64,000 bases of DNA, taken from Psychroflexus lacisalsi. Lineage in GTDB: Bacteria > Bacteroidota > Bacteroidia > Flavobacteriales > Flavobacteriaceae. The number at the start of each line of letters is the position of its first letter. Position 1 is the first letter of the stretch. The notes beneath the pieces were generated by a model that was given only the letters and a program-made list of their open reading frames with translations, made no database searches and had not been told where the DNA came from. The stretch covers positions 124,001-188,000 of the forward strand of contig NZ_JAIQYZ010000002.1 of the NCBI RefSeq assembly GCF_020164495.1, read 5' to 3'. The position numbers and the translations under genes were made by a program. Of the stretch, positions 35,088 through 63,172 are shown piece after piece.

Positions 35088-35154
35088 CTAGCGGTTTATT
35101 TTTCTAAACCTAAGAATGTTTTTACACATTCACAACACAACTTCTTAAAAAAAG

Positions 35155-35228
35155 CGGTCTGGACGAGACTCGAACTCGCGACCCCCTGCGTGACAGGCAG
35201 GTATTCTAACCAACTGAACTACCAGACC
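35155..35228 (-). tRNA. tRNA-Asp (anticodon GTC)
   Basis: The minus strand folds into a full cloverleaf of 74 nt. The acceptor arms are GGTCTGG / CCAGACC, the D-arm is GTTCAGTTGGTTAGAAT, the anticodon loop is CTGTCAC with GTC, and the T-arm contains GTTCGAGTC. The discriminator base is G, and no CCA is encoded. An exact Bacteroidetes-type promoter lies upstream and a terminator follows. Confidence 0.95.
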
Positions 35229-51476: not shown

Positions 51477-52412
51477 TTACTTCAGCCAAACTTCAGCCGG
51501 CATGCCTATTTTCAGTTTACCATCGTTTTCAACTTCAACTTTAATGGCATAAACTAAAGCCACTCGCTCCTCCTTGGTTTGGATAATCTTAGGCGTGAAT
51601 TCAGCTTCATCAGAAATCCAGGTGATAACCCCTTCATAAGAAATCATCCCATTTTGTGAGTCTACTTTCACTTCTACCTTATTTCCCAAACTGAAATCGG
51701 TCAACTGGAGTTCTGAGATGTATGCTCTGATTTCTAATCTTGATAAATCAGCAATTTCAAATAGCGGCTTGCCGTATTGCGCCACTTCGGAAGCCTCTGC
51801 GTAGGTGTTGAGCACTCGACCATTAATAGGGCTTTTTATCATACTTTTTTGAAGTAAATCCTCCAATTCTTTCAATTGAATTTCAATGAGCTGAAGCTCG
51901 GTAAGCACTGAGGTGTTTTTGGACTTCACACTATTTATTTGCTGATTTAAAGCATTGATTTCTCCTTGGATATTATCTAATTGCTGTTGAGTTGCGGCAT
52001 TTTCACCTAACATCTGTTTGATGCGATTTCGATTTATTTTAGCGGTTTCTAACCTCGCAGAAAGCACACTGATTTCTGCCAACACGCTGCTAGAATTGGC
52101 TTGTATGACTTCTTTAAGTTCATTCCATTGGTATACTTGACCTTCTAATTTTTCTTGTGCTTCTTTAGCCTCAGCTGTAGAAGCGAAAGCCGTTAAATTC
52201 GCACCCATTGGACTTGGTAAATTTTCACTGATTAAGTAAGCCGAATTTTCAGCTGAAATCATTTCGCCAGGTTGATTATAATTAGCGACAAGCAACTTAG
52301 CATTTTCAAAATTTTGTGGCTCTTCTTTTATATAATTCACCATACATTCTATAGCGTCAAACTTTCGTTGTTTGCCTTTTTCTGTCACGAATTGAGCTGA
52401 ATGTGTTTTTTG
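51477..52412 (-). pseudogene. In-frame chimera: inverted nosL fragment joined to HlyD-type membrane fusion protein
   Basis: An open frame runs leftward. The first part is NosL without its lipoprotein start: upstream of the GTG at 52388 the frame still reads QKTHSAQF, then VTEKGKQRKFDAIECMVNYI, PSPMGANLTAFAST and GQVYQWNEL, the nitrous-oxide-reductase copper chaperone. Near residue 95 it passes directly into a HlyD/YbhG-like coiled coil (ENAATQQQLDNIQGEINALN) and the distal lipoyl/barrel part (SPINGRVLNTYAEASEVAQY, ending IGMPAEVWLK). Neither half has its signal peptide or N-terminal half. A functional periplasmic adaptor is therefore unlikely. Confidence 0.8.
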
Positions 52413-52931
52413 AACAATAATGTGTTTAAAAAAAATTGGGGAACCGCTTCTTATGGGTTGTTACTAAAGGAAATCAGTGACGGCGAAATCTACCACAATG
52501 CTTTTGAGAACAACACCACAGGAATCACAGCAGATGGTTCTACGAGAATAACATATCGTGAAAATGACTTCATAAATAATGGTTACGCTGTAAAATTCGT
52601 AGGTGGTAGCTATCAGAATAATTTTTCAAGAAATAATTTCCTCTATAATAACTTCGATTTGAGTTATTCTGGTGGCTTAAATGATAATAGCTTTGATAAG
52701 AATTATTGGAGTGATTATACAGGTTATGATTTGGACAAAGATGGATATGGAGATGTGCCTTATCGCCCTGTGAAGCTATTTAGTTACCTGGTAAATGAAA
52801 CGCCTGAAAGTATCATTTTATTAAGAAGTTTATTTATAGATATCATCAACTTTTCTGAGAAAGTGACTCCAGTTTTCACTCCAAAAAATCTCACCGATCA
52901 ACAACCTTTAATGCGCGAAGTACAATGGTAG
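52413..52931 (+). pseudogene. nosD: nosD, 5'-truncated
   Basis: The plus-strand frame opens at an ATG (52401), but recognisable NosD begins around 52413 (NNNVFKKNWGTASYGLLLKE). It shows the right-handed beta-helix repeats of periplasmic NosD (NAFENNTTGITADGS, NDFINNGYAVKFVGGSYQNN) and the conserved late FDKNYWSDYTGYDLDKDGYGD. The signal peptide and about half of the protein are missing. The cut end directly abuts the cut end of the inverted nosL fragment. It overlaps the nosF start by 7 bases, as in intact nosDFY. Confidence 0.8.
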
Positions 52932-53632
52932 AATTTAAAGATATTCATAAAAATTTTGGTAAAAATGAGGTGCTCACAGGCATCAATTTAAAGATTCAAA
53001 AAGGTAAAACTACCGCTATTTTAGGTCCTAATGGCTCTGGAAAAACCACCTTAATCAAAATATTACTCGGAATGTGTCATTCAAGTAAAGGCGATATTTT
53101 AGTGGGTGAATCCAATACCAGAAACAATTGGTCCTACAGAAAAAATATTGATTATTTACCACAAATCGCCAACTTCCCTGGAAACATAAAGGTGAAAGAA
53201 ATCATAGCAATGATCAAAGATTTGCGACATCAAAAAACACGTGATACAGAATTGATTGACTATTTTGAACTTGAACCCTACCTCAACACCAAACTGAGTC
53301 ATCTATCTGGTGGTTACAAGCAAAAAGTAAACTTGGTACTTAGTCTTATGTTTGACAGTCCATTTGTTATTTTGGATGAACCCACTTCAGGCCTGGATCC
53401 TCTATCCCTGATTAAATTAAAAGACCTGCTCAAAAAAGAACAGGACAATGGAAAAACAATCCTGATAACTTCTCACATCATGAGCTTTGTAGAAGAAATC
53501 TCAGACCATATCAGTTTTATTTTAGATGGTAAAGTCTATTTTGACGGAAGTATAGACGATTTAAAATCAAACACAGGAGAAACCGATTTTGAATACGCCA
53601 TTGCTAACTTATTAAAACACAATCATGCTTAA
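52925..53632 (+). CDS. nosF: NosF, ABC ATPase for nitrous oxide reductase maturation
   Basis: The 235-residue protein has Walker A AILGPNGSGKTTLIKI, signature LSHLSGGYKQKVNLVLSL and Walker B FVILDEPTSGLDPLSLIK. With NosY it energises delivery of sulfur or copper species to NosZ via NosD in the periplasm. It overlaps nosD at its start and nosY at its end (8 bases). It is intact, although its partner NosD is truncated and NosZ is not in the window. Confidence 0.9.
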   Translation: MVEFKDIHKNFGKNEVLTGINLKIQKGKTTAILGPNGSGKTTLIKILLGMCHSSKGDILVGESNTRNNWSYRKNIDYLPQIANFPGNIKVKEIIAMIKDLRHQKTRDTELIDYFELEPYLNTKLSHLSGGYKQKVNLVLSLMFDSPFVILDEPTSGLDPLSLIKLKDLLKKEQDNGKTILITSHIMSFVEEISDHISFILDGKVYFDGSIDDLKSNTGETDFEYAIANLLKHNHA

Positions 53633-54407
53633 AATATTAAAATACAGTTTTTTTGATTTGGTAAGAAGCCGTTGGAGCTATGTCTATTTCTTATTCTATC
53701 TGCTTTTGAGTTCGGTGTTGTTATTTTTGAACAACGACCTATCAAACACCATTATCACCCTGCTCAATGTTGTGATCGTTTTAGTACCACTCATCGGAAC
53801 TATTTTCGGGGTAATGTATTACTATGATTCACAGGAATTTACAGAACTGCTTTTAGCACAACCCATTAAAAGGCGGTCAATATTTTTGGGGCAGTTTTTA
53901 GGTGTGGCTACTTCCCTATCCTTAAGTGTGTTATTAGGCCTGGGCATTCCCTTTGCGTTGTATGGTTTATTCGAATCCAATGTTATTTTCGATTTTTTAA
54001 TTCTGATTGTAGTCGCTGTTTTTTTAAGCTTCATATTTAGTGCTTTGGCTTTCAATATTGCCTTGTCCAATACCAATAAAATTAAAGGATTTGGATATGC
54101 CATTTTATTATGGTTGTTTTTGGCAGTCATTTATGACGGTACTTTTTTGATTGCCCTCATTTATTTTCAGGAATATCCTTTAGACCAATTTACCCTCATC
54201 GCTACGCTGTTTAATCCTATCGATTTATCACGAATTCTAATTTTATTGAAACTTGATATCTCCGCACTACTGGGTTATACAGGAGCTATTTTTAAAGACT
54301 TTTTCGGCACTTTAACAGGAAGCCTAGTGTCCTTAGGGGTATTAGCAGTGTGGGTAGTTTTACCTTTATGGCGAATGCTTTGTATAGCCAATAAAAAAGA
54401 TTTTTAA
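53625..54407 (+). CDS. nosY: NosY, ABC permease for nitrous oxide reductase maturation
   Basis: The 260-residue protein has six TM helices starting YFLFYLLLSSVLLFLNNDLS. The cytosolic SQEFTELLLAQPIKRRSIFLGQFLGV matches the NosY/ABC-2 coupling region, and the late TLFNPIDLSRILILLKLDISAL matches NosY. The overlap with nosF and the preceding nosD fragment confirm identity. Confidence 0.9.
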   Translation: MLKILKYSFFDLVRSRWSYVYFLFYLLLSSVLLFLNNDLSNTIITLLNVVIVLVPLIGTIFGVMYYYDSQEFTELLLAQPIKRRSIFLGQFLGVATSLSLSVLLGLGIPFALYGLFESNVIFDFLILIVVAVFLSFIFSALAFNIALSNTNKIKGFGYAILLWLFLAVIYDGTFLIALIYFQEYPLDQFTLIATLFNPIDLSRILILLKLDISALLGYTGAIFKDFFGTLTGSLVSLGVLAVWVVLPLWRMLCIANKKDF

Positions 54408-54417
54408 TATCCTGAAC

Positions 54418-54461
54418 TTGATTCAAGTCATAAACTAAGGCCTGATCTAGTCGTAATTTTA
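54418..54461 (+). promoter_or_regulatory. Crp/Fnr-type operator and promoter of ric
   Basis: The operator ttgattcaagtcat (54418-54431) has TGA-N6-TCA symmetry centred at 54424.5. The -7 element taatttta starts at 54454, 29.5 bases from the centre, and the ATG of ric is 33 bases after it. The last base of the -7 element is A, not G, which suggests dependence on an activator. Confidence 0.7.
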
Positions 54462-54486
54462 AGTTATAATTTAAATCCTAAGCATT

Positions 54487-55206
54487 ATGTCCTTAATAAA
54501 AGATAAAACAGTTGCTGAGCTGGTCAGTGAAAATATAAATACAGCTCATGTTTTTAAAAAACACGGTATTGATTTTTGTTGCGGAGGAGGTATCAGCGTT
54601 GATAAAGCCTGCGAAAAAAATCAAGTTCAATTAGATGATTTACTAGAAGATCTTCAGAATCTGGAAAACAAAGGCAGAACCTATGATTATAAAAAGTGGG
54701 ACTTGCATTTTCTGGCTCAACATATTGAAAATGTTCATCACAGCTATGTAGAAGAAACTATCCCGATACTGATTCAATATACCAATAAAGTAGCAAAAGT
54801 TCACGGCAGCACCAATCCAGAATTGATCCAAGTGAGAGATTTATTTGTTGAAGTCGCTAATGAGTTAACTCCACATTTGAAAAAAGAAGAGCTGATATTA
54901 TTTCCTTTTATTGCTAAAATGGAACGCGCATTTAAAGATGCTAAGAAAGTAGAGCGACCTCATTTTGGAACGGTAGAAAACCCTATTGCGATGATGGAAG
55001 ACGAACATGAAGCCGCAGGAGATCTATTTAAGGAAATTGCTTCTTTAACTCATAACTATACCCTACCAGAACATGCCTGTAATACATATCGAGCTATGTT
55101 TCATAAACTAGAAGAATTTGAAAATGATTTACATTTACATATTCATTTAGAAAATAATATCCTTTTCCCAAAGGCTTTAGCTTTGGAAAAGGAAGTCCTT
55201 TCATAG
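54487..55206 (+). CDS. ric: Iron-sulfur cluster repair di-iron protein (RIC/YtfE/ScdA)
   Basis: The 239-residue protein has a DUF542 N-terminal domain (FKKHGIDFCCGGGISVDKAC, with the CCGGG motif) and a hemerythrin-like four-helix domain with HIENVHHSYVEETIP, LTPHLKKEELILFPFI, MMEDEHEAAGDLFKE and LHLHIHLENNILFPKAL. These supply the His/Glu ligands of the di-iron site. It repairs Fe-S clusters after nitric oxide or oxidative damage in the cytoplasm. It follows nosY by 79 bases that hold a Crp/Fnr-type promoter. The next gene begins 13 bases downstream. Confidence 0.93.
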   Translation: MSLIKDKTVAELVSENINTAHVFKKHGIDFCCGGGISVDKACEKNQVQLDDLLEDLQNLENKGRTYDYKKWDLHFLAQHIENVHHSYVEETIPILIQYTNKVAKVHGSTNPELIQVRDLFVEVANELTPHLKKEELILFPFIAKMERAFKDAKKVERPHFGTVENPIAMMEDEHEAAGDLFKEIASLTHNYTLPEHACNTYRAMFHKLEEFENDLHLHIHLENNILFPKALALEKEVLS

Positions 55207-55219
55207 TTTGTTTTGATTG

Positions 55220-56461
55220 ATGATGACCCTAAAACAGCACTTTATAAATAGTCTTTACTATTTTCTTATAACAGCTGTTTTAGGGTTTTTTTTGAGACTA
55301 GAATCTACAGCGTTCAGCTTTGATATCATAAGCAACTACAAATATGTGGTGCATGCGCACTCTCATATTGCGTTATTAGGTTGGGTCTACTTAGGTTTGA
55401 GTAGCTTTATTGTCCATTTTTTTATTAAAAAAACAAAAATTAGGCAATACTACATCAAGATATTCTGGGCCGCACAAGCCTGTTTAATCGGGATGCTTAT
55501 CGCTTTTCCTATTCAGGGTTATACTTTAGTTTCTATACTATTCTCCACCTTATTTCTAATTGTAAGCTATATATACTTCGGATTTATCATAAGGCATACG
55601 CCCTCAAAATTCAAATCTAGAAAATCATACCTTCTCATAAAACATGCTTTGTTTTACATGGTGCTATCATCGGTTGGGCCGTGGGCTCTTGGAGCTATCA
55701 TGACCACTTTAGGTAAAACCTCAGTATGGTATAAATTGGCTATTTATTTTTATCTGCATTTTCAGTACAACGCTTGGTTTGTACTGGCTATGATAGGGAT
55801 CTTGGTATTCATTTTGGAGAAGTATAAATTCAAAATTGAAACCAAATCCTTTTCTAAATTTGTTTACCTATTCCATATAGGAATTATCAGCACCTTCTTT
55901 TTGTCCACACTTTGGGCAACCTCACACTGGTCGGTCTATCTGCTAGGTAATTTAGGAAGTCTGTTTTTATGGATTGGCTTATTTTACTTATGGAAATCGA
56001 TTCAAAATCCGTTTAAGGCTTTTTATAGTTCATTGGCTAAACAATCTAAATTTATTCTGAAATTCCTCATATCCGGTTTCATCTTAAAGTTGATCATGCA
56101 AACTTTAAGCGGAATTTCTTTTTTTGCTGAAATGGCCACTGCTAACTTAGATGTGGTTATTGGTTATTTACATTGGTTTTTCTTAGGGGTTGTCAGTTTG
56201 TTTTTATTGTTTTTAGCTTCTCATTTGAAATGGATCAAGCTTTCAAATTTCAGCTTAAGCCTTTATCTTATTGCTTTTATAGCAACTGAATTTCTAATTT
56301 TCTACCGGGCTGGTATGGTCATTTACAGGTGGAGTTATTTGTCAAATTTGAATATTTATTTAGCAATGGCTTCATTTATATTTAGTGTCGCTATCATTAT
56401 AATTTTGATTCAAAGTTTTTTGATAAGGAAGAATCAAAATCAGATGATTAAAAAAAATTAA
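55220..56461 (+). CDS. Heme-copper oxidase subunit I-like membrane protein (NnrS/NorB-like)
   Basis: The 413-residue protein (ATG at 55220 or 55223; a TTG at 55217 is not needed) has about 12 TM helices. Early VVHAHSHIALLGWVYLGLSS has the His cluster of cbb3/NorB-type proteins, mid-protein FYLHFQYNAWFVLAMIG and late VIGYLHWFFLGVVSLFLLFL add further His ligands. The family is often linked to nitric oxide reduction or NO tolerance in Bacteroidetes. The exact member (NnrS or a cytochrome oxidase subunit I homologue) is not resolved. It forms an operon with ric. Confidence 0.7.
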   Translation: MMTLKQHFINSLYYFLITAVLGFFLRLESTAFSFDIISNYKYVVHAHSHIALLGWVYLGLSSFIVHFFIKKTKIRQYYIKIFWAAQACLIGMLIAFPIQGYTLVSILFSTLFLIVSYIYFGFIIRHTPSKFKSRKSYLLIKHALFYMVLSSVGPWALGAIMTTLGKTSVWYKLAIYFYLHFQYNAWFVLAMIGILVFILEKYKFKIETKSFSKFVYLFHIGIISTFFLSTLWATSHWSVYLLGNLGSLFLWIGLFYLWKSIQNPFKAFYSSLAKQSKFILKFLISGFILKLIMQTLSGISFFAEMATANLDVVIGYLHWFFLGVVSLFLLFLASHLKWIKLSNFSLSLYLIAFIATEFLIFYRAGMVIYRWSYLSNLNIYLAMASFIFSVAIIIILIQSFLIRKNQNQMIKKN

Positions 56462-56540
56462 GCTAAACGTTTACAGTTAAACGTGAATCTTTAATTTTTA
56501 AAAATGGACTTCTCTTCAATTGTCATTTTGATCTCGCTTA

Positions 56541-56840
56541 TCACTCATCCACTTTAAATACTTTCAACTTGCTTTTAGTCATCCTTAATTCTTCCTGTAA
56601 ATCATCAATTTGATGTAATAAATTATGGATCACGTCAATACCTTCAATATTGATATTGAGGTCATAATGAAACTGAATAGCTCGCTCAAGCGTTTTCAAT
56701 TGTTCATTTAAAATGTACTTTTTATCATCCACAACAATAATTTCAATAACACCGTATTCATTTAAAGCATTAATAAAAGAAAAGTTGATGTCGCAGTTCG
56801 AGCAGAAGTGTTCGACAAGTACTAACTTATTTGTTTCCAT
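56541..56840 (-). CDS. cbpM: CbpM-like chaperone modulator
   Basis: The 99-residue protein starts [20 protein letters not shown] and continues with a MerR-like HTH-type helix and the coiled end [21 protein letters not shown]. Length and pattern match CbpM, which binds and inhibits CbpA. Its start overlaps the end of cbpA by 14 bases (56827-56840), typical of this pair. Confidence 0.8.
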
Positions 56841-57747
56841 GAGATCTGATATTTTGTAATTCGATAATCAATTGCTTTTCTTTATCTGAAAGATTGGTTG
56901 GTAATTTCACATTGTAGGTTACAAACAAATCACCAAACTCATTCTCTTTTTTATAGACAGGAAAGCCTTTCCCTTTCAATTTGACTTTGGTACCAGATTG
57001 GGTTTCTGGTGCAATTTTAAGTTTGACTTTACCATCAAAAGTATCTATCAAAACTTCTCCACCCAATAGGGCAGTGTAAAGATCTACATCTGTTGTGGTA
57101 TACAAATGCTTTCCATCTCGTTTAAAGTCTGTATTGCTATTAATTGAAACGGTTATGTATAAATCTCCATTTGGACCGCCATTGATTCCGGGAGCACCAT
57201 GCCCGTTGATTTTTATAACCTGACCATCTTCAATCCCTGCAGGGAAAGTCAGGCGGATTTTTTTGCTATTGACGGTTAGGGTCTGCTTTTGAGTGGTATA
57301 AACATCCTTTAGGTTGAGTTCTAGTTGAGCATTCAGATCCTGACCTCTAAACTTGGTTTGTCTAGTTCTTCCTTGACTACTTTTACCCTGATCACCAAAC
57401 ATCGATTCAAAAAAGTCTGAAAAATCTCCTGAAAATTCTTGCTGATTTGAATATCCTCCAGCATTTTGATAAGCTTGCTGTTGCTGTCTTTGCTGCCGCT
57501 GAGCTTCTTTAAATTCATCGGCGTGTTTCCAATCCTTACCAAACTCATCGTACTTTTTCCTTTTCTCAGGATCACTGAGCACTTCGTGAGCCTCGCTGAC
57601 CTGTTTGAACTTGTTTTCCGCTTCTGGATTGTTAGGGTTTAAGTCTGGATGGTATTTTCGCGCCAGCTTGCGGTATGCAGCTTTTATCTCCTTTTGATTT
57701 GTCTTTTTATTAAGACCTAAAGTATTGTAATAATCAACAAATTCCAT
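56827..57747 (-). CDS. cbpA: DnaJ-class co-chaperone CbpA
   Basis: The 306-residue protein has an N-terminal J domain ([23 protein letters not shown] in [15 protein letters not shown] near 32-34), a Gln/Gly/Phe linker ([17 protein letters not shown]), and two C-terminal substrate-binding domains ([37 protein letters not shown]). No zinc-finger domain is present, as expected for CbpA rather than DnaJ. It stimulates DnaK and may bind DNA in stationary phase. Confidence 0.9.
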
Positions 57748-58060
57748 AGTTTATAGTTGAGCTTAACCATTAATTACCTTTACTAAGGTATAGACTTTTT
57801 ATGAAAAAATCTGATATATATATATACACTTTAAAACTCGAAGGTGATTAAGATATGCTAAAGTTTAAATTGGATTAAGTTTGACTTTAAATGTTATCTG
57901 ATTCCTGAACAGATTGAACTAAGTCTACCAGGCTTATTATGGAATTTTTAGTTTTGAAAATTAAAATTTTTGATTCTAGTCCAGTATTTATGACATGACC
58001 TTAGTCATATATGAAAAGGACAAGTTTGCTTAACTTTGAATTATTCTGATAAAGATAATT
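57748..58060. other. Divergent gap of cbpA and the cupin gene
   Basis: The 313-base gap holds the cbpA promoter region, not resolved, next to an AT dinucleotide run (57811-57825), and the operator and -7 element of the cupin gene at 57995-58038. No gene is seen. Confidence 0.6.
57995..58038 (+). promoter_or_regulatory. Crp/Fnr-type operator and promoter of the cupin gene
   Basis: Operator atgaccttagtcat (57995-58008), perfect dyad ATGAC-N4-GTCAT, centre 58001.5. The -7 element TAACTTTG is at 58031-58038, starting 29.5 bases from the centre. The ATG lies 30 bases after the start of the -7 element. Confidence 0.8.
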
Positions 58061-58402
58061 ATGAAAAATGCCTCTTTGACTCAAAACCTAAAATTCAATA
58101 AGGATAAGCCACTTATCACTATTCTATTCGAAACCGATTTTACTAAGGAAATCAGAATTGCCTTGCACCAAGGCACAACGATGAAAGAACACAAAACATC
58201 TTTTCCTATTGTTATAGAAATTCATGATGGCGAAATAGATTTCGGCGTTAGTGGAGAGATTAAGAATATGACAAAAGGAGACCTCATCGCCTTGGAAGCT
58301 AATGTGCCTCACGACTTGTTAGCCAAAAAAAACACCATTGTTCGACTAACGTTAACCAAGCAGGATAAATCTGAACGGGTTCAGGATGTTGTCAATCAAT
58401 AA
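58061..58402 (+). CDS. Small cupin protein
   Basis: The 113-residue single-domain cupin shows LHQGTTMKEHKTSFPIVIEI (metal-type His with Glu two residues before) and KGDLIALEANVPHDLLAKKN. It would be a cytosolic metal-binding or sensory protein. The substrate is unknown. The Crp/Fnr-type promoter upstream links it to the nitric oxide and copper genes. It is convergent with the hemerythrin gene and separated by a weak hairpin at 58426-58447. Confidence 0.8.
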   Translation: MKNASLTQNLKFNKDKPLITILFETDFTKEIRIALHQGTTMKEHKTSFPIVIEIHDGEIDFGVSGEIKNMTKGDLIALEANVPHDLLAKKNTIVRLTLTKQDKSERVQDVVNQ

Positions 58403-58452
58403 GAGTATAAGCCATAAAAGCTTATGAAGTCCTTTAGGTCTTCAAAAAACAA

Positions 58453-58914
58453 TCACTTCCAAAACTTGTCAGGCCAAACTTCACATGCTTTTTGTGAATC
58501 GTGAATGTCTTGAAATTCTGCGAGCTGTTTTTCATTCATTTGCTCTTGAATCAAATTAAACAACTCCCGCTCTTCCAAACGGATATGCTTTTGAAGTAAC
58601 TCATAAATAGCTTTGATATCCTCATAAGATTTAGATTCTACTTCAAATAAAGATTTCAATTCCCGGTGTTGTTGTTTTACTTTTTGAACGAGAAGCTGCT
58701 CATTACCAAACTTTGGGAATAAATACTTTTCTTCCATTTCAAAATGCGGAATCAAATGATGTTTCCAAAACCAGGTAGCATAAGCTTCCATGCTTTTTAG
58801 ATTAGCTTTTTTCGCCACTCCCTTTTGTAAACGCAAGGCAAAAATAAGCCCGTCATGATGTTCTCTACTCAAGTTTTTTAAGGCATCATGACGTTTAATT
58901 GGTGAATTATTCAT
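58453..58914 (-). CDS. Hemerythrin-domain protein
   Basis: The 153-residue protein has the His/Glu ligands of a di-iron or heme-free hemerythrin: LSREHHDGLIFALRLQKG, FWKHHLIPHFEMEEKYLFP, KQQHRELKSLFE and LLQKHIRLEERELFNLI. It may bind oxygen or NO or sense iron. It follows the hemoglobin gene by 30 bases in the same operon. Confidence 0.87.
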   Translation of the reverse strand: MNNSPIKRHDALKNLSREHHDGLIFALRLQKGVAKKANLKSMEAYATWFWKHHLIPHFEMEEKYLFPKFGNEQLLVQKVKQQHRELKSLFEVESKSYEDIKAIYELLQKHIRLEERELFNLIQEQMNEKQLAEFQDIHDSQKACEVWPDKFWK

Positions 58915-58944
58915 GTTCCAAAATAACTAAAAATAAGTGAGATG

Positions 58945-59343
58945 CTAATCTGAAGCATCTTTCTTTCTATCCATGTACATGGTCATAAATAGGTGTGAAG
59001 CCATATTTCTGGCGTTATTTTTCGCACGGTTAGCCAGATCGCCCTCGAAATGCTCGTCTATAGTGGCAAACCATAGATTTAACCAGATACCAAAATGCTT
59101 TTGTTCAATACTTTCATTAAAGTGTTTGTCAACATTTTGATGTGCCAATTTGGGATTCCCTTTATAATTTCGTTTAAAAAACAAATTCGTCTCCCAGAAA
59201 TCAGTTAATTTTTCAAGATGTTCATCCCAATCTAAAATCATTTCATTAAAAAAATGTCCTATGTCTTTATTCTGACGAATTTTTTCGTAAAAATGATGCA
59301 CTAATTTGGAGACATCTTCTCTTGTTTTTAAGTCGTGACTCAT
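58945..59343 (-). CDS. Group III truncated hemoglobin
   Basis: The 132-residue protein shows FYEKIRQNKDIGHFFNEMI, then DWDEHLEKLTDFWETNLFFK, HQNVDKHFNESIEQKHFGIWLNLW, with the proximal His region of group III globins. It binds heme and probably detoxifies NO. It is translationally coupled to the upstream gene: the stop and start overlap (TAATG). Confidence 0.9.
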   Translation of the reverse strand: MSHDLKTREDVSKLVHHFYEKIRQNKDIGHFFNEMILDWDEHLEKLTDFWETNLFFKRNYKGNPKLAHQNVDKHFNESIEQKHFGIWLNLWFATIDEHFEGDLANRAKNNARNMASHLFMTMYMDRKKDASD

Positions 59344-59627
59344 TAGAAAAAGGTATAATAAGCAATTGTAAATACACTTGATAAAACGCTAATCACCTGA
59401 AGCAGAAAGGCCATCTTTGGTTTAAAACCAACTAAAACAGCTGCATTATAAACCATGCAGATAATTACAATCCAGCCTAGGTGAACAACATGAAATACTG
59501 TATTTCCATCAGCTAGAATCATCATTGCAGCAATAGAACCCAAGCAACTAGAAGCAATAATCCCCAATACAGAATTAGCCATGTAATACTTTTCAAAATC
59601 ATCTGATAAACTCTTAATTAGATTCAT
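59343..59627 (-). CDS. Small membrane protein of the hemoglobin operon
   Basis: The start at 59627 (MNLIKSLSDDFEKYYMANSV) is chosen because an earlier ATG at 59651 lies within the -7 element. The protein has 94 residues and three predicted TM segments (about 17-35, 45-66 and 73-91). No family was recognised with certainty. It leads the operon with the hemoglobin and hemerythrin genes. Confidence 0.65.
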   Translation of the reverse strand: MNLIKSLSDDFEKYYMANSVLGIIASSCLGSIAAMMILADGNTVFHVVHLGWIVIICMVYNAAVLVGFKPKMAFLLQVISVLSSVFTIAYYTFF

Positions 59628-59648
59628 AATTTGTAGTTTTAAATTACT

Positions 59649-59692
59649 CAAAACTACAAGTATGTCTCACCACTGTTTATGATTTGAATCAA
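59649..59692 (-). promoter_or_regulatory. Crp/Fnr-type operator and promoter of the hemoglobin operon
   Basis: On the minus strand ttgattcaaatcat (rc at 59679-59692), TTGAT-N4-ATCAT, is almost the FNR consensus; centre 59685.5. TAGTTTTG (rc 59649-59656) starts 29.5 bases downstream. The operator is 13/14 identical to the ric operator. Confidence 0.8.
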
Positions 59693-59714
59693 TTGAAAAC
59701 TATTGGAATTCGTC

Positions 59715-60311
59715 TTACCTAAAAATCTTACGTTTTTTTATTTCAATGTCACCTTTTTTCTCCAAAGCTTTACAAGCTCTTATTACCGTTTCTACGCGTA
59801 AACCAGTAAGATCTGCAATCTGTTGACGCGTGAGATCCACTTCCAGAATCTCATGAGTCTCCATCTTTTGAATATGCTTTTTGGTATAGTCCAGCAACCT
59901 GATGATGCGATGTTCAGGATCCTGAGATGAAATTTCTGAAGCCATAATTGCTTTGTAGTAAAGTCGCGAGGCCAGTACTTCAGAAATATTAAAATGTGCT
60001 TCAGGGTGTTTATTTAACAAATCAAAAAAAACATCTTTAGGCAACCGAAAAACCTCTACATCTGTAATAGTTTCTGCTCCTGCTGGATAGTTTACGTCTG
60101 CAAATAAGGGCGGTTCACCAAAGCTTTGATCTGAATAAAAAATCCCTTGAATAAACTCTTTACCATCCCTATTAAAGTTATTCATCTTTACTTCACCCGT
60201 TTTGATTTGATAATAATACTGAGCTTTACTTCCGTATTCGAAAATAACGTTGCCTCTTTCAATTTCGAGAATTTCTGCATTAAATTGAATCAATAATTTG
60301 GGATCTATCAT
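59715..60311 (-). CDS. Crp/Fnr-family transcriptional regulator
   Basis: The 198-residue protein has an N-terminal cyclic-nucleotide-binding-like barrel (VIFEYGSKAQYYYQIKTGEV, then FGEPPLFADVNYPAGAETI) and a C-terminal HTH with DLTRQQIADLTGLRVETVIR, then ACKALEKKGDIEIKKRKI. The recognition helix R-V-E-T-V-x-R fits proteins that read a TGA half-site. No Fe-S-ligand Cys cluster is present, so it is not an FNR-type oxygen sensor; a heme or NO-responsive DNR-like role is possible. Four adjacent operators fit it. Confidence 0.9.
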   Translation of the reverse strand: MIDPKLLIQFNAEILEIERGNVIFEYGSKAQYYYQIKTGEVKMNNFNRDGKEFIQGIFYSDQSFGEPPLFADVNYPAGAETITDVEVFRLPKDVFFDLLNKHPEAHFNISEVLASRLYYKAIMASEISSQDPEHRIIRLLDYTKKHIQKMETHEILEVDLTRQQIADLTGLRVETVIRACKALEKKGDIEIKKRKIFR

Positions 60312-60396
60312 GAAACTATTTTATAAGCTTAAAGATGTGGATTTTAAAAAAATTAAATGTCTCACAAACAGAATTTTTTAAAATTATATTTGGGAA

Positions 60397-60441
60397 TGTG
60401 ATTAAAATCACACAACAAAATAAAGGTTCTACTTATTTTTG
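60397..60441 (+). promoter_or_regulatory. Crp/Fnr-type operator and promoter of the copper receptor operon
   Basis: Perfect 16-bp palindrome tgtgattaaaatcaca (60397-60412), equal to the E. coli CRP consensus TGTGA-N6-TCACA; centre 60404.5. The -7 element tatttttg starts at 60434, again 29.5 bases from the centre. The palindrome may also serve the divergent regulator gene. Confidence 0.85.
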
Positions 60442-60445
60442 CGTT

Positions 60446-60829
60446 GTGCAAAACTGGAAGTTACATATTGCTTTATTCTTAAGCCTCACTGTGCTTTTAT
60501 TCACCATTAAGTCGGCCTTTTGGCTATCTTACTATATGGTATTTACCGAAAATTTTATAGAAAATTACTGTGAAAATACAGATCAGCCTGAGCTGGAGTG
60601 CGACGGTAAATGTTTTCTAAGCGATATGCTTGATAAAAAAGATAAGGATGCTCCAAAAAACACTTCTATTTTTCTGGAAACCGAGCTGGTTTTCACAACC
60701 TCTATTTATGATATAGCTCTTGAATTGCAGGAACCTACATTTACGAGTCAACATTCTTTTTTTTACATATCACACTACAATCCTTTCTACTTAGAAAGCA
60801 GTTTCAAACCTCCCGCCCTTTCTGTTTAA
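60446..60829 (+). CDS. Cys-containing membrane protein upstream of the copper receptor
   Basis: The annotated-looking ATG at 60335 lies upstream of the operator and -7 element, so a GTG at 60446 (giving (M)QNWKLHIALFLSLTVLL) or at 60491 is preferred. The protein has one TM helix (about residues 8-29) and an outward Cys motif YCENTDQPELECDGKCFLSD (C-x9-C-x3-C). Small proteins of this kind sit before TonB receptors in Bacteroidetes. A metal-handling function is inferred only from the cysteines and the neighbour. It ends 45 bases before the receptor gene. Confidence 0.6.
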   Translation: MQNWKLHIALFLSLTVLLFTIKSAFWLSYYMVFTENFIENYCENTDQPELECDGKCFLSDMLDKKDKDAPKNTSIFLETELVFTTSIYDIALELQEPTFTSQHSFFYISHYNPFYLESSFKPPALSV

Positions 60830-60874: not shown

Positions 60875-63172
60875 ATGAAATTTATTTTAAGCGCAGTACT
60901 CTATACGTTTAGTTTTATGACGCTTTTAGCGCAAACTAAATCTATAGAAGTAAAAGACGCACAAACCCAAGAAACTCTTACTGGCGTATACGCCATCAAT
61001 CAAAATAACAAAAAAGACTATCGCCTTACCGAAAATAACTTATTGAAGTTAGACTTAGGGGAAGTCTACCTTATAAGTCACATAGGGTATAGCCCTTTAT
61101 TACTAAAGATTGAAACGACTACTCCAGCAATCATAACCCTAGAAGCTTTAGAAACTAAGCTGGGAGAGGTATTGGTAACTGGACGAATTTTTCAAGACCC
61201 GGTTATGAACACTATTACTCCAGACTTGACTGAACGTGTGACGCAACCTAAAAACGTAGCTGACTTATTCAGGGATATTAATGGGTTTGGTCTCATCAAA
61301 AGAGGAAATTACGCCATCGACCCCTCCTTTAGAGCTGCACAATATGAGCAACTCAATATTCAGTATGACGGCGGAACTAAAGTGATGCATGCCTGCCCTA
61401 ACCGGATGGATCCCATTACCACGCACGTCATGCCTGAAGATATTTCAAAAATTGAAGTGGTTCGGGGCCCTTACACTATGCGCTATGGTGCCACGTTTGG
61501 CGGTCTTATCAATATGGTGTCCAAGCGACCAGAAGTAGGTAATTATGGGTTATCAGGGAGTGCGTCCACAGGTTATGAAACCAACGGAAACTCGTTGGTC
61601 AACATGGTTCGACTGCAATATGCAGAAGAGAAATTTGATGTGGTGGGCATGTATGGCTACAGAGATTTTGGAAATTATGATGATGGAGCTGGACGTGAAA
61701 TCCCATCCTCCTTTAGAAGTATCGATTATAGCCTCCGCATGGGTTATAATTTCACTAGCCTAGAGCGATTACAATTGCATTGGAGGCAATCTTTTGGCAG
61801 AGATGTGCTTCACGCGTCCTTACCAATGGATTCAGACTTTGATGATTCTTCTATGTTATCTCTGGATTATTTCAAAAAGAGACCAGGAAAGACACTTCAA
61901 AACATAAAAGCCAAAGCTTATTATTCTTACGTAGATCATCTGATGAGCAATAGCAGAAGAAGCAATTTTGCAGTTGCAGAGGCAGTAGCTCCTGTAGAGG
62001 CCACCACAGCTGGAGGTCGATTTGAACTGGAGTGGAAACTCGATGAGTTCTGGACGCTCTTTACCGGGACAGATGCCCTTTTAATTAGTAGAGATGGGCA
62101 AAGAAACCGGCTGGTCAAACAAAACATGATGGGCATGCCGCTAGATCCGCCGCTGGCATTTACAGATAAGATCTGGCAAGATTCATTTATAAACAATTAT
62201 GGTTTCTTTGCAGAATCACGGTATAGACTCAATTCCTCAACAGTACTCAATGCTGGTGTTCGCTATGATTTGGTCAACTCCGATATTCAAGATCCTGAAG
62301 CAGATTTTCAGGCTTACTACCCTGGATTAGGAAACAGAACTGAGCATAATTTTAGTGCTACCGCATCGCTTAAGAAACTGCTGGATCCAAATAATCAATT
62401 GGAATTTGCCTTTGGCCGTGGGGTACGATCTGCCAACATGATCGAACGGTTCATCAATCATTTTCAGGTAGGTCAGGATTCATTTGAATACATTGGTAAT
62501 CCCAATCTGGATGCTGAAGTCAATAATCAATTTGAAGTCGCTTATACGGGCAAGAAGATATTAGATGGTGCCATCAATAGGTTAGACTGGGGCGCCTCCG
62601 TGTATTTTTCTCATTTTGAAAATTACATCGTGGCCATCATAGACTCTACCAAAACCAGGAAGTTTATGCCTGCACAAGAACCACAAAATCCCAAGGTATT
62701 TAGAAATCTTGAAGATGCTTACAAAACAGGGTTTGAAGCTAACTTAAGCGTAGCATTTTTGGACAATTTTCAATTGGATGCAGAGACTGCTTATGTGTAT
62801 GCCAGAAATGAAGATTTGAGTGAGTCTTTACCGCTCACTCCACCATTGCGAACCAGGTTGAGTTTGCAGTACAACAAAGATAAATTTTGGGCTGCAACAG
62901 ATGTAAGGTTGGTGAGCCGGCAAGATGAGCTAGCCACATCCTTTGGTGAAAACCAAGCGACTCCTGGTTACGAATTGATAGACTTCCGTTTGGGCTATGA
63001 ACTATTTCCAGGCTTGGATTTGGGTGCAGCGGTTCTCAATGCATTTGATCAGCAGTATTACGATCACCTTAATTTTGCTTTCAGAAATCAAGCCGATGCT
63101 GGCTTGAGTGGTCTGGAACGCTTAACAGATCCGGGGCAGAATTTTACAGTATTTGTTAAGTATGCGTTTTAA
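60875..63172 (+). CDS. TonB-dependent copper receptor (OprC/NosA-like)
   Basis: The 765-residue outer-membrane receptor has a signal peptide (LSAVLYTFSFMTLLAQ), a carboxypeptidase-like N-terminal domain (about 20-95), a plug domain with DISKIEVVRGPYTMRYGATF, and a beta-barrel ending in VKYAF. The plug contains MHACPNRMDPITTHVMPEDI: a Cys-x3-Met pair and a His-x-Met pair. Pseudomonas OprC binds copper with CxxxM and HxM motifs, and NosA-type receptors share the RMDP text. It probably imports copper for NosZ and other enzymes. TonB at 41621 could energise it. Confidence 0.85.
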   Translation: MKFILSAVLYTFSFMTLLAQTKSIEVKDAQTQETLTGVYAINQNNKKDYRLTENNLLKLDLGEVYLISHIGYSPLLLKIETTTPAIITLEALETKLGEVLVTGRIFQDPVMNTITPDLTERVTQPKNVADLFRDINGFGLIKRGNYAIDPSFRAAQYEQLNIQYDGGTKVMHACPNRMDPITTHVMPEDISKIEVVRGPYTMRYGATFGGLINMVSKRPEVGNYGLSGSASTGYETNGNSLVNMVRLQYAEEKFDVVGMYGYRDFGNYDDGAGREIPSSFRSIDYSLRMGYNFTSLERLQLHWRQSFGRDVLHASLPMDSDFDDSSMLSLDYFKKRPGKTLQNIKAKAYYSYVDHLMSNSRRSNFAVAEAVAPVEATTAGGRFELEWKLDEFWTLFTGTDALLISRDGQRNRLVKQNMMGMPLDPPLAFTDKIWQDSFINNYGFFAESRYRLNSSTVLNAGVRYDLVNSDIQDPEADFQAYYPGLGNRTEHNFSATASLKKLLDPNNQLEFAFGRGVRSANMIERFINHFQVGQDSFEYIGNPNLDAEVNNQFEVAYTGKKILDGAINRLDWGASVYFSHFENYIVAIIDSTKTRKFMPAQEPQNPKVFRNLEDAYKTGFEANLSVAFLDNFQLDAETAYVYARNEDLSESLPLTPPLRTRLSLQYNKDKFWAATDVRLVSRQDELATSFGENQATPGYELIDFRLGYELFPGLDLGAAVLNAFDQQYYDHLNFAFRNQADAGLSGLERLTDPGQNFTVFVKYAF

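Follow-up and report, generated by a model that had tools for sequence, protein, structure and literature searches.

In Escherichia coli, class II promoters of FNR and CRP carry the dyad for the regulator centred at about -41.5. In Campylobacter jejuni, the Crp/Fnr protein NssR is described as a positive regulator of the globins Cgb and Ctb under nitrosative stress (PMC4601167), and DNR and HcpR are presented in the accounts cited here as nitric oxide (NO)-responsive Crp/Fnr proteins that lack the cysteines of FNR and have N-oxide genes as targets (PMC1274295, PMC12750200). Bacteroidota promoters have sigma-A boxes unlike those of E. coli, and for that reason little is understood of how they are activated. 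In a start-site map of Flavobacterium psychrophilum the box, TAnnTTTG, is given as occupying -12 to -5 (PMC9723704). Here we analysed 64,000 nucleotides of Psychroflexus lacisalsi (contig NZ_JAIQYZ010000002.1, positions 124,001 to 188,000; hereafter the window), which hold a gene for a Crp/Fnr-family protein (59715-60311; hereafter window Crp) and four promoters with a TGA-N6-TCA dyad, those of ric, a cupin gene, a globin operon and a copper-receptor operon. We consider it likely that window Crp is the class II activator of an N-oxide defence island and that its signal is most likely NO, nitrosative stress or low oxygen. The operators, the -7 boxes and the predicted transcription starts are as follows.

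54419..54430, plus strand: ric operator TGATTCAAGTCA, then TAAA; gap of 23 bp kept in four close relatives (L267-L270)
54454..54461, plus strand: ric -7 box TAATTTTA; predicted start 54466, from the box position given in PMC9723704
57996..58007, plus strand: cupin operator TGACCTTAGTCA, then TATA
58031..58038, plus strand: cupin -7 box TAACTTTG; predicted start 58043
59680..59691, minus strand: globin-operon operator TGATTCAAATCA, then TAAA; kept in relatives
59649..59656, minus strand: globin-operon -7 box TAGTTTTG; predicted start 59644
60399..60410, plus strand: copper-operon operator TGATTAAAATCA within TGTGA-N6-TCACA, so that CACA follows the TCA; kept in L267 and L269
60434..60441, plus strand: copper-operon -7 box TATTTTTG; predicted start 60446

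The original prediction had placed a dyad at each of these promoters, with exactly 29.5 bp separating its centre from the TA of a downstream TAnnTTTG-type box, and had seen no TTG near -33. All four dyads are present where it put them when flanking bases are left out of the count, and the distance from TCA to the TA of the box (hereafter the gap) is 23 bp in every case, which gives the 29.5 bp from centre to TA. The box needs one amendment, since TAnnTTTG is found at three of the four promoters and TAATTTTA at ric fits only the looser TAnnTTT[GA]. No TTG was found 16-24 bp upstream of the TA at any of the four; a tRNA-Asp gene, to whose promoter a -33 TTG had been ascribed, is present at 35154-35228. 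Forty TGA-N6-TCA dyads occur in the whole window, and when gaps of 5-60 bp downstream of them were scanned, TAnnTTTG was met three times at gap 23, once at gap 18 and at no other gap. The matches expected per single gap were 0.059 (TAnnTTTG) and 0.152 (TAnnTTT[GA]), and the excess at gap 23 had a Poisson P, multiplied by 56 gaps, of 0.0019 and 0.0011, respectively. The genome-wide search that had been proposed also found gap 23 over-represented, as 9 of the 40 dyad-box pairs at gaps of 17-29 bp fell there and each of the remaining gaps had a mean of 2.58 (Poisson 0.0014; 0.019 corrected for 13 gaps).

At the globin operon, site and regulator are linked across genera. Of 119 genomes of the family, 29, each from a different genus, encode an orthologue of window Crp (E at most 1e-30), and the 30 loci examined comprised 29 around orthologues outside the P. 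lacisalsi genome (two of them in genome G112) and a separate globin locus in genome G027. MP95, the small membrane-like protein encoded first in the operon, or the globin was encoded near at 23 of these loci (22 beside crp and that of G027 away from it), and neither was found near at the remaining seven. The dyad was present in all 23 globin-operon promoters, and in 22 of them it stood ahead of a loose box, xAnnTTT[GA], at a gap of 23 bp (16 loci) or 24 bp (6 loci); the remaining locus, L075, has the dyad and a box that misfits under both the strict and the loose form. Globin promoters in genomes without an orthologue carried a dyad and box at gap 23 or 24 in 0/26 cases (22/23 versus 0/26, p 5e-13), the scan reaching 250 bp back from MP95 or globin at the loci near crp and up to about 900 bp at the 26 control loci. 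Five of these controls had a dyad elsewhere upstream, and one more had a dyad with one mismatch at gap 22. Further globin loci in orthologue genomes, distant from crp, had the site in 2/7 cases, with eight more globin matches in those genomes standing outside the seven counted. As the definition of the box is relaxed from TAnnTTTG to TAnnTTT[GA] and then to xAnnTTT[GA], the number of matching globin-operon loci among the 23 rises from 8 to 12 and to 22; requiring TA in the box was rejected as too strict, as it hid 11 of the 23 loci with plain dyads, L075 among them.

The site in relatives has the consensus TTATGA-N6-TCATAA, an 18-bp symmetry in which TATGA stands on the left in 22/22 sites and TAAA follows TCA in 20/22. 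The pattern TATGA-N6-TCATAA-[21,22]-ANNTTTG was matched in 23/29 orthologue genomes and 25/90 others (p 1.7e-6), compared with 4 matches in total for the reversed pattern, and TCATAAA-type sites were weakly associated with the orthologue when counted per genome (18/29 versus 38/90, p 0.087). The closest relatives of window Crp among named genomes are those of P. gondwanensis (88% identity), P. aurantiacus (82%), P. tropicus (79%) and Flavobacteriaceae bacterium 14752 (79%), and the globin site is found at gap 23 in three of these four; at the P. aurantiacus globin promoter the dyad and the TA stand at gap 23 and the box reads TACTTTGT. Among 19 loci from named relatives, which partly overlap the family-genome set (L272 with G034, L276 with G025), MP95 or globin was found in 17 and the site in 16 of those 17, nine times at gap 23 and seven times at gap 24. 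The claim of identical spacing thus stands for all four window promoters and becomes 23 or 24 bp in relatives. The gap of 24 (centre at -42.5) was seen at the globin operons of seven Aquimarina and Flavobacterium loci (L278-L284), and that of 23 at the Psychroflexus and Planktosalinus loci. At three loci a second dyad at gap 23 lies just downstream of the globin gene (L272:11827-11869, L273:11860-11902 and L274:11893-11935), and those of L273 and L274 stand ahead of a dnaJ-like gene.

For the ric promoters, under the loose box, the site was found in 8/23 cases with an orthologue and 1/31 without (p 0.003), at gap 23 in six of the eight and at gap 24 in two; two of the 23, both among the eight, come from genome G025, and two of the 31 from G001. 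We therefore take ric to be a member of the regulon in some lineages only, the four closest relatives, all with the site at gap 23, among them. The copper site is kept in both named loci that have a copper operon (L267 and L269). The three species compared all retain outer bases that set it apart, TGTGA..TCACA, which makes its regulator less certain; control of the copper operon may lie with a different protein or be shared with a second one. Among Psychroflexus-type relatives, identity was 100% over the six letters of the dyad and the five of the -7 box (five ric, four globin and three copper sequences), and over spacer bases 4-23 it was 38% for ric, 36% for globin and 52% for copper; the length of the spacer is kept and its sequence is not. 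No cupin homologue was found in the named-relative loci. In G027 (L236) the globin gene has a gap-23 site ahead of it and a cupin homologue, in the same orientation, downstream of it, and the membership of the cupin gene, which we regard as less certain, is suggested by its own site and this one relative.

With the box at -12 to -5 and its TA at -12, the centre of the dyad falls at -41.5, in agreement with the original placement near that position. On this geometry, the assignment of the operators to the class II activator position is well supported. Predicted leaders are 21 nt for ric, 18 nt for cupin (counted by hand) and 17 nt for the globin operon, and the flavobacterial median is given as 24 nt (PMC9723704). 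At the copper operon, an in-frame GTG begins at the predicted +1 (60446), and a GTG stands at exactly this place in 3/3 species (the window, P. gondwanensis L267 and P. tropicus L269). In L267 there is no in-frame start between the stop codon 42 nt upstream and the GTG, and the longest copper open reading frame (ORF) of the window (60335-60829) would begin upstream of its own promoter. These features suggest that the 127-aa gene starting at GTG 60446 is leaderless, which is plausible because leaderless mRNAs make up 5.5% of the published flavobacterial map (PMC9723704). The position of the GTG is also an independent sign that transcription would start 12 bp after the T of the TA. The spacing rule would allow start sites to be predicted without transcriptomics, the predicted leaderless copper gene being an example.

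The genes of the window island are listed below.

54487..55206, plus strand: ric, ScdA/YtfE-type iron-sulfur cluster repair di-iron protein (TIGR03652, above cut-off)
55217..56461, plus strand: 414-aa membrane-like protein, 10 bp downstream of ric (no Pfam or NCBIfam match)
58061..58402, plus strand: cupin-like protein, 113 aa (Cupin_2, E 2e-5, under its cut-off)
58453..58914, minus strand: hemerythrin-like protein, downstream of globin (PF01814)
58945..59343, minus strand: group III truncated hemoglobin (phmmer against PDB 2ig3, E 1.6e-13; Pfam match sub-threshold)
59343..59627, minus strand: MP95, small membrane-like protein, first gene of the globin operon (by position and the neighbourhoods in relatives)
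59715..60311, minus strand: Crp/Fnr-family regulator, the proposed activator (V-E-T-V-I-R helix, one Cys, no canonical cAMP pocket)
60446..60829, plus strand: 127-aa ORF from the GTG at the predicted +1, copper operon
60875..63172, plus strand: TonB-dependent receptor, copper type (TIGR01778, E 3e-73, under its cut-off)

The 414-aa membrane-like protein often adjoins ric or crp in relatives and is perhaps related to N-oxides. Beside ric, at 52401-54407, nosD is represented by its C-terminal half only (profile positions 206-377); it is accompanied by two ABC genes and adjoined by an HlyD-type efflux operon in the opposite orientation. In P. gondwanensis, a single island holds nosZ, a full-length nosD, two ABC genes, ric, globin, crp and the copper receptor, and the ABC genes between nosD and ric are homologues of the two in the window; we read the nosD half and ABC genes of the window as what is left of a nos operon. 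A copper receptor would make sense within an N-oxide regulon, since NosZ is a copper enzyme.

In the mechanism that we propose, a dimer of window Crp would bind TGA-N6-TCA (TTATGA-N6-TCATAA in relatives) centred at -41.5 and would touch RNA polymerase in place of the absent -33 TTG. The globin operon and ric would thereby be turned on, and probably also the cupin gene and the copper-receptor operon. Binding, activation in preference to repression and the nature of the signal are what we infer here; because the targets include RIC, the group III truncated hemoglobin and hemerythrin, and because nosZ and nosD are neighbours in a close relative, the signal would most likely be NO or a related nitrosative or low-oxygen cue.

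A cNMP-binding domain occurs in seven proteins of P. lacisalsi, six of which resemble Crp/Fnr regulators, and one of these was found to share the promoter geometry described above. It is a fusion of a receiver domain to a Crp/Fnr protein, and its locus and the further gap-23 promoters of this genome are the following.

L016:2510-4796, genome position C1:671.5-673.8 kb: receiver-Crp/Fnr fusion with a PAS histidine kinase
Gap-23 promoters preceding: usp (universal stress protein), hemN, ccoS with ccoNO (cbb3 oxidase) and hpf
Gap-23 promoters also preceding: a 128-aa membrane-like protein, a WG-repeat-like protein (by eye) and a DJ-1/PfpI gene

The fusion and its kinase look like a low-oxygen system of the FixLJ kind whose output is a Crp protein, and the fusion is probably a low-oxygen-linked regulator. 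At 28 of 30 fusion loci (our own included), a TGA-N6-TCA promoter starts at most 100 bp downstream, and its gap was exactly 23 in a scan that allowed 22-24; in P. lacisalsi this promoter leads into usp. None of the seven further gap-23 promoters, which were found in fetched stretches of the genome, has TAAA after the dyad, and one extra match (L021) lies within a gene and is probably due to chance. TAAA follows the dyad in 0/28 fusion sites versus 20/22 window-Crp sites (p 5e-12), TnTTT follows it in 14/28 versus 0/22, and the T of the -7 TA is present in 27/28 versus 12/22. The spacing is thus common to both regulators and the flanks are distinct. Across the family, TGA-N6-TCATNTTT occurs at promoter spacing in 100/119 genomes (317 matches, compared with 5 for the reversed control), with 3.55 TCATNTTT-type sites per genome when the fusion is present and 1.76 when it is absent (p 4e-6), and with no such difference for window Crp (p 0.54). 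Fusion orthologues were scored among the best 17 first-look candidates per genome, so that some may have been missed. As 35 of the 47 genomes with neither protein (at the cut-offs used) still carry TCATNTTT-type sites, the fusion is not their sole regulator. Among the matches listed by pattern alone for three sets of 12 genomes, the spacing occurred in genomes with either regulator or with neither, and such lists did not show which regulator a site belongs to.

These results make it necessary to ask whether the four promoters, or some of them, are activated by another Crp/Fnr paralogue, chiefly the fusion, with the neighbouring crp a bystander. The fusion has an E-x-x-x-R recognition helix and a gap-23 promoter just downstream at nearly all of its loci, the usp, hemN, ccoS and hpf promoters share the spacing, and the cupin and copper sites, which lack the TAAA flank, would fit such an arrangement. 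We nevertheless think it unlikely, since the two sets of sites are separated by their TAAA and TnTTT flanks, the window ric and globin sites carry TAAA, TCATNTTT-type sites track the fusion and not window Crp, and the globin-operon site tracks window Crp. The view that window Crp is a repressor, blocking the polymerase until a signal arrives, draws on the overlap of a -41.5 site with the -35 region, where repressors bind too, and we regard it as quite improbable: a repressor would need no exact spacing while the spacer sequence diverges, and the absence of a -33 TTG from four promoters and of the T of the -7 TA from 10/22 sites in relatives is as expected for dependence on an activator. That the spacing is a product of chance and composition, TGA, TCA and TAnnTTTG all being common in AT-rich intergenic DNA, is an explanation that most genome-wide dyad-box pairs at other gaps may deserve, and also the intragenic match at gap 23. 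For the four promoters taken together it is very improbable, and we rejected it on the tests in the window (about 0.001), the genome and the relatives, including conservation across genera and the 5 reversed matches against 317. Conservation speaks against chance for the globin operon, for ric and, within Psychroflexus, for the copper operon, and chance is still possible for cupin.

Several observations weigh against window Crp as the activator of all four promoters, and we list them together. The P. lacisalsi genome itself has no match to TATGA-N6-TCATAA-[21,22]-ANNTTTG, and 25/90 genomes that carry no orthologue match it. The loose xAnnTTT[GA] box was chosen after the data had been viewed; with the strict box the ric site is found in 2/23 promoters with an orthologue and 0/31 without, and 15/23 ric promoters in orthologue genomes lack the site even with the loose one. 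Five other Crp/Fnr-type proteins are encoded in the genome, and the fusion and a 189-aa protein (L017) also have the E-x-x-x-R helix. The TAAA flank is absent from the sites of cupin and copper. The neighbouring protein as activator is well supported for the globin operon (22/23 versus 0/26) and ric (8/23 versus 1/31) and is less certain for copper and cupin, and a single regulator of four promoters, as first proposed, agrees with the TAAA of ric and globin and not with the TATA of cupin, the CACA of copper or the same spacing at seven other promoters, one of them beside the fusion. A broader reading, which we offer tentatively and rate somewhat below even, is that the Flavobacteriaceae have a common activation grammar in which Crp/Fnr paralogues (the N-oxide type and the receiver-fused, probably low-oxygen type) would all act at -41.5 with no need of a -33 element and be told apart mainly by their flanks, and in which strong contact at N-oxide promoters would make the T at -12 dispensable. 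The geometry is kept in many genera and there are two operator types, which makes it testable whether class II contact replaces the -33 element, and candidate regulons for defence against NO and for respiration at low oxygen become readable in a large bacterial family.

Window Crp belongs to the Crp/Fnr superfamily (PF00027, E 1.7e-16; PF13545, E 4.8e-9; both above cut-off). With one Cys in its 198 aa it has no N-terminal cysteine cluster of the FNR type, and the matched stretches of its 29 orthologues hold none to three cysteines. It scores 57.7 bits with the curated CRP model, whose cut-off is 266. The signature of cAMP-sensing CRP is Arg-Ser in the phosphate pocket, and this pocket reads GEPPLF..YPA.A in window Crp. 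The Glu and Arg of a helix like that of window Crp read TGA in FNR and CRP, and these residues were present as E174 in 30/30 and R178 in 29/30 of the sequences compared. A link of CRP positions 180 and 181 to operator bases is given in PMC1274295. Two orthologues (L232 and L235) have an altered helix, S-T/I-E-A-T-I-R, with a gap-24 dyad right beside crp and no globin operon near. Sequence matches of window Crp in the PDB include DNR (3dkw, E 2.3e-11).

In the titles and abstract openings that our literature search covered, we found no account of this regulon or of a -41.5 Crp/Fnr layout in flavobacteria, which does not imply its absence from print. Compared with E. coli FNR and CRP, the window promoters share the dyad at -41.5 and window Crp has the V-E-T-x-x-R helix of FNR, but the promoters use the Bacteroidota sigma-A box TAnnTTTG in place of -10 and -35 elements, and window Crp lacks both the 4Fe-4S cysteines and the canonical cAMP-contacting Arg-Ser. 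HcpR2 differs in that most Bacteroides regulons are predicted, in the accounts cited, to hold hcp only, and most genomes that have HcpR2 show a GTAACnnnnGTTAC motif (PMC1274295/PMC12750200). NssR is similar in being a Crp-family protein with a single cysteine and a small regulon that includes a truncated hemoglobin. It differs in phylum and promoter type; the window set adds ric, hemerythrin and probably the cupin and the copper receptor, the operator is TTATGA-N6-TCATAA, and an NO response of window Crp is suggested by its target genes. Window Crp would thus work like NssR, its likeness to NssR and HcpR being one of description and that to DNR also one of a PDB-chain match. The point of interest is the candidate family-wide -41.5 grammar with its two flank codes; the regulator itself appears to be like the known activators of the NssR type.

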